Part shown: piece by piece, positions 350 to 9,369 of the stretch | Layout: each line of letters starts with the position of its first letter | How positions within the stretch are numbered: position 1 is the first letter of the stretch | Source of the DNA: Planctomycetota bacterium | Lineage (GTDB): Bacteria; Planctomycetota; Phycisphaerae; UBA1845; PWPN01 | Assembly: GCA_016209665.1 (NCBI GenBank) | Contig: JACQVT010000670.1 | Coordinates: 1-11,985 of the forward strand | Direction of reading: 5' to 3' | DNA length: 11,985 nt | The notes under the pieces: generated by a model | The model's input: only the letters and a program-made list of their open reading frames with translations | Databases searched by the model: none | Told to the model about the DNA's origin: nothing | Made by a program: the position numbers and the translations under genes

Positions 350-2110
350 ATGGCTCGGCTGTTCAAAAAAACCTACCCAAAGACACACGTAGTCAAGGGG
401 CCGGACGGCAAGGCCGTCATGGTCCGCAACACTAAGGGCCGGCTCGAGCCGAAGCGGGAACCCGTCCTGGACGCAGACGGCCAGCCCGTCATGGCGACGG
501 CTCGCCGATGGTCGATCGAATACACCGGGGCCGATGGTCGACCGAAACGGAAGGTGGCCTACACCGACCGGCGGGCATCCGAGAAGCTGCTGTCCGACCT
601 GGGGGTCAAAGCTGAGCGGGTCAGGGCCGGCGTCCGCGACCAGACGACCGAGCAGCTCGTGGGGCCGATCAAAGAGCATGCCGCCGCGTACAAGGCCCAC
701 CAGGAGGCCCAAGGGTTTACCGCAAACCACGTGAAAGAGTCCCTGGCCCGAATCAGCCAGGTGATCGGCGCCTGCAAGTTCACGAGACTCGCAGACGTCG
801 AATCTGGCCCCGTGGAAGCGTTCCTGGTGGGTATCCAGCAGGACCGGCGGGACAAGAGCGGCAAGGTCACAAAGGCCGGCGTGGCGAACCGTACCCGCAA
901 CACGTACCTGATTTCACTCCGGGCGTTCATCAACTGGGCGGTGGACACGAAGCGCATGGGCTACAGCCCGCTCGATTCGATCGCCCTGCTGTCTGAGGAG
1001 GTCGACCAGCGGCGCGAACGGCGGGCGGCGACGGCCGACGAGTTGGTGAGGCTCGTTACTGCCGCCCGCCGGCGCCCCCTGACCGTCGCCAAGGCGTTGG
1101 TGAAGCACCGGGGCCACATGCTGACCGACGAAGGCCGCCAGCGGCTCGGGCTGGAGCGGGCCTTGATCTACAAGACGCTGGCCCTGACCGGCGTCCGCGT
1201 GGGCGAGCTGCGAGAATCGACCTGGGGTGACTTCGACCTGAAGGCCGGTTGGCTGAACGTACCCGCCAGAACGGCGAAGAATGACCAGGCCGCGGACGTC
1301 CCGCTCGGGGACGCGCTGGTCGCCGATCTGAAGGGCTGGTCGCAGGAACAAGGCCGGCCGGGGCCGGACGCTCGCGTGTTCGCCATCCCCGCGGACCTGT
1401 GCCGGGTGCTGAAGAAAGACCTCGCGTTTGCGGGCATCCCCTACAAGACGCGGGACGGATATTTTGACGTGCACAGTTTGCGTCACACCACGGGGACCGC
1501 CCTGGCGAACGCGGCGGGCATCCCCGGCAAGGTCGCTCAGAAGTTCATGAGGCACAAGACCCGGCGGTTGACCGAAGATACCTACGTTGACAAGCGGCTC
1601 GTCGATCTGCGGCGGGCCCTGCCTGCCCTGCCCGACGTCCCGATTCCCCACCTGGACGGCCCCGACGTTGAAGCACTCCGGGCGACGGGAACCGACGGCC
1701 GGACAGCCCAAAAGCTACCACCAGGTAGACCGGAAACACTACCCGCCGGTAGTCTGCGGGGCGGATTGCGGGGCGTGAATCTGCGCCGCAAGGGGGCGAG
1801 CAGTGGTCCTGATCGGTCAATCGACGAAAAACCGACGGATGCAAAACAGGCCGGAAACACGAGCGTAAACGGCTGTGGTGACAAGCATTTGGCCCCAAGG
1901 GGGCGAGCGGAAGTCCTCAGTGGTCAAGGTGCCAACTCAACTGACCCCGACGAGATTCGAACTCGTGTTGCCGGCGTGAAAAGCCGGTGTCCTGGGCCAC
2001 TAGACGACGGGGCCGACCGATCCATCCGGGACGTTACGCCGGATCAGAACGGTGAAGCGGCAGACCCATCGGAGGCGGGCCGGACCGCTCAGCAGTTCCC
2101 GGAAGTATAG
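350..2110 (+). CDS. Tyrosine recombinase / phage-type integrase
   Basis: Site-specific recombinase expected to integrate and excise the element at the adjacent tRNA-Glu gene. With the start at ATG 350 it has 586 residues. The N-terminus MARLFKKTY resembles integrases I associate with planctomycetes. Residues about 105-225 form the SAM-like core-binding domain. The catalytic domain shows R283 (TGVRVGEL), K310 (RTAKND), H375 and R378 (HSLRHTTG), H402 (RHKT) and the nucleophile Y412 (DTYVD), so the active site is complete. The domain should end near residue 425. The remaining 160 residues are low-complexity, and residues about 531-555 are the antisense reading of tRNA-Glu (DPDEIRTRVAGVKSR). The TAG stop lies in the tRNA promoter -10 box. 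The tail is therefore probably partly chromosomal and not a conserved domain; no earlier in-frame stop exists. Confidence 0.9.
   Translation: MARLFKKTYPKTHVVKGPDGKAVMVRNTKGRLEPKREPVLDADGQPVMATARRWSIEYTGADGRPKRKVAYTDRRASEKLLSDLGVKAERVRAGVRDQTTEQLVGPIKEHAAAYKAHQEAQGFTANHVKESLARISQVIGACKFTRLADVESGPVEAFLVGIQQDRRDKSGKVTKAGVANRTRNTYLISLRAFINWAVDTKRMGYSPLDSIALLSEEVDQRRERRAATADELVRLVTAARRRPLTVAKALVKHRGHMLTDEGRQRLGLERALIYKTLALTGVRVGELRESTWGDFDLKAGWLNVPARTAKNDQAADVPLGDALVADLKGWSQEQGRPGPDARVFAIPADLCRVLKKDLAFAGIPYKTRDGYFDVHSLRHTTGTALANAAGIPGKVAQKFMRHKTRRLTEDTYVDKRLVDLRRALPALPDVPIPHLDGPDVEALRATGTDGRTAQKLPPGRPETLPAGSLRGGLRGVNLRRKGASSGPDRSIDEKPTDAKQAGNTSVNGCGDKHLAPRGRAEVLSGQGANSTDPDEIRTRVAGVKSRCPGPLDDGADRSIRDVTPDQNGEAADPSEAGRTAQQFPEV
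1691..1925. repeat. Duplicated set of short repeats and two tandem dyads beside the tRNA
   Basis: Four words occur twice in the same order: ACCGACGG (1691, 1831), CCGGAAACAC (1730, 1851), CAAGGGGGCGAGC (1789, 1896) and AGTGGTC (1802, 1919). Their spacings (140, 121, 107 and 117 nt) differ, and the first three pairs fall in different frames of the integrase, so they are DNA-level repeats and not a repeated protein segment. In addition, CTACC-ACCA-GGTAG (1715-1728) and ACTACC-CGCC-GGTAGT (1738-1753) are two hairpins with a 24-nt period. Position next to the integration site suggests arm-type binding sites for the integrase or an excisionase; this is inference. Confidence 0.55.
1942..1987. other. 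Probable attachment site (att) in the 3' part of tRNA-Glu
   Basis: Tyrosine recombinases commonly use the 3' half of a tRNA gene as attB, and the integrase here lies directly off the tRNA 3' end. The likely identity block is the T-arm plus acceptor 3' strand, possibly reaching into the anticodon arm. The second copy expected at the other end of the element is not present between 1 and 1941, so it should lie to the left of the window. Exact limits cannot be read from one junction. Confidence 0.55.
1942..2014 (-). tRNA. tRNA-Glu (anticodon UUC)
   Basis: Read on the minus strand, the 73-nt gene starts GGCCCCG (2014-2008), which pairs with CGGGGTC at the 3' end with one G-U pair, followed by the discriminator A at 1942. 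The anticodon arm is CCGGC-TTTTCAC-GCCGG, with the anticodon TTC at 1980-1978. The T-arm is ACGAG-TTCGAAT-CTCGT. CCA is not encoded; the next minus-strand bases are GTTGAG. The whole gene lies inside the reading frame of the integrase on the other strand. The gene is intact, so integration has preserved a functional tRNA. Confidence 0.96.
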
Positions 2111-2383: not shown

Positions 2384-2863
2384 TCAGAATGCTGGTGCCA
2401 TCAGGCGGCGGGCGTTTGGGCCGCCGGGAATAAACGTCAGGCGCCGGCGGGTGTCGGCGGTCGGCTCAATCTCGATCGTCAGCCGATCATCGGGCAGCAG
2501 GTCGACGACGCGGTCAGCCCACTCGACGACGACGGCACCGTGGCGGCACATCTCGTCAAAACCGATGGCGTCGAGATCGTCGCTGCCGCGCAAGCGGTAC
2601 ACGTCGATGTGATAGATGTGCAGGGCGTCGGGGCGGCCGGCGGCGTCGTACTCGTTGACGATCACGAACGTCGGACTGTTCACCTGCCGCAGATCGCTCA
2701 CCCCCGCCCCGGCGGCGACGCCCTTGACCAGCGTCGTCTTGCCTGAGCCCAGGGGGCCGACCAGCGCGACCACGTCGCCGACGCGCAGGTGGGACCCGAG
2801 CCGGCGACCTACCCGCCGCGTGGCCTCGACGCTGTCGCAATCGATCGTGGACGGCCCGTTCAT
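2384..2863 (-). CDS. tsaE: tRNA threonylcarbamoyladenosine biosynthesis ATPase TsaE
   Basis: TsaE (YjeE family) is the ATPase that supports the TsaB-TsaD complex in making t6A at position 37 of ANN-decoding tRNAs in the cytoplasm. The protein has 159 residues, close to the usual size. It shows the Walker A loop GPLGSGKTT (36-44), the family motif SPTFVIVNEY (63-72), HIDVYRL (85-91) and the Walker B-like VVVEWADR (111-118). Its start codon overlaps the end of thiL by 4 nt (ATGA), so the two are translationally coupled. It is the last gene of the minus-strand group. Identification is firm; TsaB and TsaD are not in the window. Confidence 0.95.
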   Translation of the reverse strand: MNGPSTIDCDSVEATRRVGRRLGSHLRVGDVVALVGPLGSGKTTLVKGVAAGAGVSDLRQVNSPTFVIVNEYDAAGRPDALHIYHIDVYRLRGSDDLDAIGFDEMCRHGAVVVEWADRVVDLLPDDRLTIEIEPTADTRRRLTFIPGGPNARRLMAPAF

Positions 2864-9163: not shown

Positions 9164-9205
9164 GCGAGGATGCGTCGCTAAACAGGAACGCAGATCGAGT
9201 CATGT

Positions 9206-9283
9206 ACCAGCACGAAGCGCAAGCGAGTGCTCCTTGCGCCGTTCGCGCCAACAGATGGGCACTCGCTTGCGCTTCGTGCTGGT
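9206..9283. repeat. Perfect 25-bp inverted repeat (REP-pair/REPIN-like element)
   Basis: The arm 9206-9230 (starting ACCAGCACGAAGCGC and ending AAGCGAGTGC) is exactly the reverse complement of 9259-9283. The 28-nt spacer 9231-9258 is TCCTTGCGCC at its left end. It can form a 25-bp hairpin or cruciform. From memory, this arm (translated as YQHEAQAS or LACASCW) occurs often in planctomycete intergenic DNA, which would make it a dispersed REP-like family; no transposase of the RAYT type is in this window. It lies 54 nt upstream of the chosen sigma factor start. Confidence 0.92.
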
Positions 9284-9369
9284 TGAGTCGCACCGGGTCA
9301 AACGGTTCATCCGACGCCCCTACTCAGTGATCCGGGCTCCGATGCGGCGCTGGCTGCGTTGTCGGTGCT

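Follow-up and report, generated by a model that had tools for sequence, protein, structure and literature searches.

The analysed window, a stretch of 11,985 nucleotides, is the complete contig C553 of an assembly that comprises 940 contigs and is 77.6% complete. On its plus strand, a frame at 350-2110 encodes a protein of 586 aa and ends with a TAG at 2108-2110. An in-frame ATG exists further upstream at 257, but relatives align from 350 instead. Residues 265-415 match PF00589 (Phage_integrase; 52.8 bits, cut-off 27.1), which places the protein among the tyrosine recombinases, and R283, K310, H375, R378, H402, and Y412, which we take to be its catalytic residues, are invariant in an alignment of 31 rows. 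PF16795 (Phage_integr_3) was matched neither by the window protein (E up to 0.001) nor by nine of its relatives (E up to 1). The codon of Tyr412 is situated 359 nt before a tRNA-Glu(TTC) gene on the minus strand, and the integrase frame crosses this whole gene in antisense. The following features are located in this region.

350-2110, plus strand: tyrosine integrase (586 aa), apparently in its integrated form; assigned from frame, domain, and alignment
1142-1594, plus strand: PF00589 catalytic domain, residues 265-415 (Pfam match), with the Tyr412 codon at 1583-1585
1682-1693, plus strand: ATGT motif, residues 445-448, typical of long-tailed members and conserved to at least 90% in the 31 rows
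1755-1775, plus strand: candidate P-arm integrase site, 9-mer TGCGGGGCG at 1755 and 1767 with a 12-bp period, read as LRGGLRG; putative for the window
1785-1820, plus strand: 36-nt direct repeat, copy 1, putative second arm element with 81% identity to 1892-1927
1892-1927, plus strand: 36-nt direct repeat, copy 2, partner of 1785-1820
1942-2014, minus strand: tRNA-Glu(TTC), the target gene, antisense to the integrase; same tRNA-tsaE neighbourhood in the relatives G362, G273, and G398
1942-1988, minus strand: predicted att identity block, from the tRNA 3' end to about nt 44-47, by analogy with 14 complete elements
1989-2110, plus strand: predicted chromosomal run-on tail of about 40 codons, deduced from the predicted att block; the same antisense frame is open in G362
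2384-2863, minus strand: tsaE (PF02367, E 1.2e-38), first chromosomal gene beyond the tRNA, beside tRNA-Glu in three relatives

The original prediction of about 175 open codons between Y412 and the end of the frame, running through the entire antisense tRNA-Glu, was confirmed with a count of 174 codons. Its placement of the TAG within the tRNA promoter was not confirmed. By eye, the minus strand shows a TATACT that shares two bases with the TAG and is preceded at a distance of 17 nt by TTGCAC, but a sigma-70 scan of 1900-2450 reported no site at the scan cut-off. In 4000 base shuffles, the stretch 1583-2107 stays open in 0.7% and its tRNA and leader part, 1942-2107, in 21.6% of the trials; thus the openness from the tyrosine to the tRNA is unusual, while that over and beyond the tRNA is unremarkable. 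Stops number 4 and 8 in the two other forward frames, and 5, 3, and 2 in those of the antisense strand.

The chromosomal side beyond the tRNA carries tsaE, an AIR-synthase-like gene, which we name thiL by its place and domains, and an argininosuccinate lyase gene. The tRNA-tsaE stretch was matched in some part in nine of ten relatives searched, and the three in which tRNA-Glu and tsaE occur together (G362, G273, and G398) were fetched for comparison. In blastn comparisons against the window, homology starts at 1942, the tRNA 3' end, in all three, with no match to the left of this position. Since the homology begins exactly there, the integrase side represents inserted DNA, and the three relatives hold the unoccupied site of a tRNA-targeted integrative element. 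In G362, which belongs to the same genus, no integrase adjoins the tRNA-Glu and the antisense frame of the tRNA is likewise open, so that the tRNA sequence itself accounts for the final part of the window frame. Between tRNA and tsaE, an array of 8-nt units AAAGTGxG is located at 2201-2330, with an inverted copy 33 nt on. Since dozens of partial matches occur in the relative G297 and in several contigs of the window's genome, the array seems to belong to a family of dispersed palindromic repeats. Another intergenic inverted repeat was spotted by eye around CACGAAGCGCAAGCGAGTG at 9196-9290.

A second att copy of the window element was absent from its own assembly both in a DNA search and in a search with a 24-nt core pattern at up to 3 mismatches, and an arm-pattern search of the same assembly returned three 3-mismatch matches, about as many as the reversed control. 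As the assembly is 77.6% complete, the missing tRNA 3' fragment is weak evidence, and with the far end missing from it we infer the circle form of this element. No free forms were matched in PLSDB (two queries) and INPHARED (one query). One other integrase of the own genome is encoded on contig C918, with no tRNA in the 3.2 kb covered there.

Among 105 homologous proteins found, 102 could be classified by their tail; the remaining three were omitted because the tyrosine column is missing. Tails of at most 50 aa past the tyrosine are present in 31 proteins and 14 are long and unclassed; a T-arm-like peptide occurs towards the tail end in 50, this peptide together with a W..LP motif in 3, and W..LP alone in 4. 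The T-arm-like peptide was called by a loose regular expression, and the assignments of P0088 and P0094 look doubtful. Both types are mixed among the four closest homologues, with P0002 and P0003 being short-tailed. Homologous tails, against which the original prediction was to be checked, hence do not all end near residues 425-450. The short-tailed proteins, including P0002 and P0003, nevertheless speak for plain run-on as an explanation, according to which the integrase proper would end shortly past Tyr412 and the remaining frame would be a GC-rich accident in circle and chromosome alike. The unremarkable openness of the frame over the tRNA and beyond, as well as the weak constraint on the linker described below, point in the same direction.

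To compare loci, an alignment of 31 homologues (A1), picked mostly for long tails, was used for fetching. The best 80 of 485 loci from genomes, with titles almost all Planctomycetota, and 64 loci from viral contigs were taken, 48 longer stretches were added, matches with fewer than 250 aligned positions or without the tyrosine were discarded, and identical copies were merged, resulting in 150 distinct integrases. In one step, ORFs of the loci were taken from the plus strand alone. An antisense tRNA or tmRNA is situated 100-700 bp past the tyrosine in 88 of the 150 integrases, a fraction that is no prevalence estimate since A1 was built from mostly long-tailed homologues and the sample is biased accordingly; a sense-oriented one occurs instead in two. 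The targets of the 88 loci comprise 15 amino-acid types, one untyped tRNA, and one tmRNA.

Except for L056, L080, L181r, L111, and L168, which stop early, the frame is open from the tyrosine into the tRNA or tmRNA in all of these loci (83 of 88), which is difficult to reconcile with plain run-on. The distance from tyrosine to tRNA in the 83 open loci ranges from 204 to 409 bp (median 302, quartiles 284 and 312). Base shuffling leads to an expectation of about 4 open frames in 79, and of the other two forward frames, one contains 210 stops and is open in 10 of the 83 loci, while the other contains 292 and is open in none. A regular expression for the ATGT motif matched 57 of the 83 tRNA-entering frames versus 1 of 40 short-tailed ones.

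The frame stops inside the tRNA in 50 of the 83 loci and beyond it in 33, one of which is the window. The integrated frame is the earliest-, middle-, and latest-stopping of the three in 17, 33, and 29 cases, respectively. A selected stop within the tRNA was rejected due to this lack of a clear frame preference. As the stop position follows the tRNA sequence, the chromosomal tail is run-on, and the proposal that the integrated tail itself marks the integration state was not upheld. The meaningful event is the loss of the circle's own C-terminus, not the gain of a chromosomal tail.

This C-terminus became visible in loci in which a partial tRNA 3' copy lay upstream of the integrase, where the flanks were joined by script to reconstruct the circle. 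A second att was accepted as a block outside an intact tRNA that reaches the tRNA 3' end with at least 40-45 bits. In this manner 14 complete elements of 6.0-19.5 kb and two of 37.9 and 46.9 kb were obtained, among them elements of the cultured carriers Neorhodopirellula pilleata Pla100 (L046), Rubripirellula obstinata CECT 8602 (L086), and Rhodopirellula sallentina SM41 (L060). In the 14 elements, the identity block starts at the tRNA 3' end and reaches nt 44-58; in 11 of them it ends at nt 44-47, in the anticodon loop. In all 16 elements with both att copies, the circle extends the integrase frame by a further 61-205 aa to a different C-terminus. Of 28 readings of the circles in other frames, two reached 61 codons or more, and no frame is longer than that of the integrase in 13 of 14 elements. 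Once integrated, 11 of 14 elements have a chromosomal tail of 0-15 aa, and the remaining three have tails of 65, 139, and 538 aa. The longest of these tails, in L158 / L082, runs in frame into chromosomal sequence that by eye resembles an HD domain.

The claim that the break lies in the tRNA, with chromosomal DNA beyond it and another C-terminus in the circle, hence holds for 16 of 16 relatives, but in case of the window the far end was not found in its own assembly. The active site was correctly placed upstream of the break, where it stays whole in the relatives with both att copies, and the frame reads on in their rebuilt circles, an outcome on which the original prediction had also been staked. 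Its own simple alternative, a meaningless run-on, applies to the chromosomal tail but very probably not to the circle's own C-terminus.

Eight further loci were extended leftward. Two of them gave a second att, in both cases with a frame that continues to the W..LP motif, and in the other six, two of which were searched over 77 kb, a second att was absent. A profile made without the two new far ends recovered both of them, with E-values of 1.5e-12 and 2.6e-9 among 3572 frames and 0.66 for the next frame. The 69 open loci without a second att have left flanks of less than 5 kb (33 loci), 5-9 kb (13), and at least 9 kb (23); two of the last group yielded a second att after extension. L165 has a weak far att of 39 nt with 82% identity and a circle extension of 40 aa, and was left out of the 16 because its far att match is below the score cut-off. 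In the viral contigs L109, L120, and L126, the integrase tail contains a 43-50 nt tRNA 3' part, and a tRNA gene is lacking within 2 kb. Another viral contig, L112, has 20-nt arm repeats and no tRNA match at the same cut-off; all four look like free forms. The tail of L212r (P0010) contains an exact 43-nt tRNA-Gly 3' half with no intact tRNA and ends 17 aa later, so that it may be a secondary site or else a free form whose end is very short.

The lost C-terminal modules are of several sequence types, namely W..LP, which is conserved and often present, SP(L)SDEERAEAV, AETLGTD, and LAPEQ. A leave-one-out profile over all module types reached E <1e-6 in 4 of 14 cases and ranked the left-out module first in 8 of 14. 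In the model of P0098, a natural full-length protein, a confident core is followed by a linker (385-490) with pLDDT below 50 and by a C-terminal helical hairpin with helices 495-506 and 509-522 and block means of 74-94. A protein search with the P0098 tail matched itself and P0106 alone; the two tails agree as far as the tRNA-derived FKSS and differ after it. On the basis of their protein sequences alone, P0098 and P0106 may be read as free and integrated forms.

The hairpin motif was also searched for in five genomes, hand-chosen like those for the family-match search, in which G003, G006, G014, and G015 contain 21-27 integrase-family matches per genome, fragments among them. It was found at 44 places, 30 of which were made into loci. 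A tRNA 3' part is located at most 420 nt upstream of the hairpin in 19 of these loci and is missing in 11. With no intact tRNA, the frame between tRNA part and hairpin is open in 17 of the 19, a count that includes one place counted twice and two matches of 22-27 nt. With the W..LP motif alone, hairpin exons were thus located that stand as orphans next to tRNA 3' halves. Two W..LP hairpin exons are present in the own genome of the window (G000:C55:394-474 and G000:C14:2784-2864); neither adjoins a tRNA-Glu fragment, and one has a weak tRNA-Ala-like match, the other no tRNA match.

Together, these results place attP within the integrase gene, and integration removes the C-terminal module and spares the catalytic domain. 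Considering the 83 of 88 frames open up to the tRNA, the 16 of 16 circle frames of at least 61 codons in the integrase frame, the out-of-sample recovery of the motif at far att sites, and the confident hairpin of P0098, we regard plain run-on of the whole tail as very improbable.

Identical 10-20-mers flank the core on both sides in 13 of the 14 elements (raw count), with L188r lacking any. They are usually 9-13-mers at a 12-bp period, e.g., GTTGCACCA. In 12 of 14 complete elements, repeats of this period are present on one arm or both, and exact 20-mers are common to both arms in 7 of 14. Mostly, they are placed about 90-200 nt after the tyrosine on one side and about 20-90 nt beyond the core on the other, and they read in frame as LAPTLAP, VVPMVVP, NACTNACT, and similar peptides. 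Judged by this arrangement, the flanking repeats look like integrase arm sites. For the linker, 20 of 21 pairs, which are non-independent, have a dN/dS below 1, mostly 0.3-0.76, the rates at the three codon positions are only 0.197/0.186/0.247, and 9 of 23 gaps are divisible by three; protein-level selection on the linker appears weak to moderate.

The overlap could accordingly matter for the DNA alone, if arm sites and core must adjoin the integrase gene, the frame is open merely for translation, and the module has no regulatory role. Within an element the arm repeats are strongly conserved (20-mers shared in 7 of 14) and the linker protein is not, and the modules are diverse, all of which would fit such a requirement. 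The W..LP motif, however, recurs across many elements and is predicted to fold, and running on is not forced, since short-tailed relatives end the integrase before attP. We consider it rather unlikely that the DNA requirement is the whole explanation.

With a probability of roughly 0.85, the window represents the integrase-side end of an element at the 3' end of tRNA-Glu, belonging to a family with the whole att site inside the integrase frame; the window gene looks like the integrated, cut state of such an element. Against this reading count the missing far end of the window, the diversity of the modules, the weak constraint on the linker protein, the six extended loci that lack a second att, L188r with its lack of shared arm repeats, and the short end of L212r. 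As read from the assembled sequences, the 16 complete relatives demonstrate the split frame and the swap of the C-terminus, and the window element would behave likewise by analogy, considering the homology of the enzyme, the tRNA placement, the linker motif, the arm-like repeat, and the unoccupied relatives. The attachment site would be laid out as arm sites, tRNA 3' core, and arm sites, all inside the integrase frame. The integrase of the circle would consist of the catalytic domain, a probably disordered linker that corresponds to attP DNA, about 45 nt of the tRNA 3' half read in antisense, and a module of 61-205 aa. After a crossover in the tRNA, this module would lie at the far end of the element, and the integrated integrase would keep its catalytic domain whole and end in a chromosomal tail that is short or accidental. 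Both forms are presumably translated, and the swap would act as an integration-state switch, the circle using the full-length enzyme and the integrated state the trimmed one. The exchange of the C-terminus may control direction, stability, or partners.

In a variant of this idea, the hairpin serves as a tag for stability or for the binding of a partner, e.g., an excisionase, and integration alters lifetime or partners instead of catalysis. The small separate module behind a disordered linker in the P0098 model would suit a tag, as would the finding that Pfam gave no match in the tails of seven module-bearing proteins, but by eye no known degron was recognised, and we judge a mere tag unlikely. 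As to a directional role, we speculate, with somewhat less than even confidence, that a lineage of the Planctomycetota keeps attP in frame so that integration removes a folded module, as a built-in directionality switch without a separate factor. The compact unit of site and enzyme would allow frequent changes of the tRNA target, and the elements would be a large bacterial counterpart of the archaeal suicidal integrases. If the switch is true, the direction of recombination would depend on the gene being joined to its own end.

In the integration-dependent immunity of mycobacteriophages, attP lies in the repressor gene and integration trims the C-terminus of the repressor; in the planctomycete elements it is the integrase that is cut. 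In the Myxococcus phage Mx8, according to PMC6070905, attP is situated within the int coding sequence and integration gives a new 3' end without inactivation and alters specificity; the same plan is reported for Mx9. The Mx8 record AF396866 contains a 25-nt tRNA-Asp 3' match on the coding strand and the T-arm-like peptide STGLEPVLLGS, with a further C-terminus after it. As in Mx8, attP lies inside the 3' part of the integrase gene with the active site upstream in 16 of 16 complete relatives. Mx8 Int itself is a distant enzyme that falls outside the planctomycete family, with 24.6 bits over 30 aa in blastp, 13.5 bits against the core profile of the family, and no W..LP match, and Mx8 and Mx9 are a single phage pair, compared to many planctomycete elements at 15 tRNA amino-acid types and a tmRNA.

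For the SSV-type "suicidal" integrases of archaea, a 2021 review (PMC8371274) describes a site inside the own gene, which integration splits, as a compact combination of enzyme and site; int(C) carries the catalytic domain, the halves are inactive, and integrases that disrupt their own gene are called exclusively archaeal. The archaeal likeness that had been proposed for the window therefore extends to the att site inside the integrase gene but not to the side of the break, which in the planctomycete elements is downstream of the active site, with the catalytic domain whole on the integrase side. The Islander database (PMC4383910) allows integrases that extend across attP as an exception. Its islands share with the present elements a tyrosine integrase, a tRNA 3' fragment at the far end, and a block of the anticodon-loop type, but in the planctomycete sample examined the overlap with attP is the rule. 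A literature search, with most subscription papers outside its scope, returned no paper on integrases of the Planctomycetota with the att site in their gene. In contrast to the statement of the 2021 review, this plan occurs in many bacterial elements, with complete examples in cultured, named species, the bacterial precedent being one phage and, by report, a second. The role of the lost tail, a question raised by Mx8, becomes testable across many natural variants. For annotation, it is a warning that many planctomycete integrase records end in an antisense tRNA.

In a tree of the 150 integrases (83 tRNA-entering, 40 short-tailed), the arrangement requires 18 parsimony changes, compared to a mean of 34 and a minimum of 30 for shuffled labels. 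The labels are clustered, but a single origin was rejected, since 18 changes correspond to several gains or losses. The nearest relative targets a different tRNA type in 54 of 83 cases. Among 152 ORFs of the 14 complete elements, 64 were scanned for domains, and AAA_25 (5), DnaB_C (4), DUF669 (2), and the small primase subunit (2) were matched, the remaining matches being single restriction-modification and other genes. This content suggests small replicons with varied cargo.
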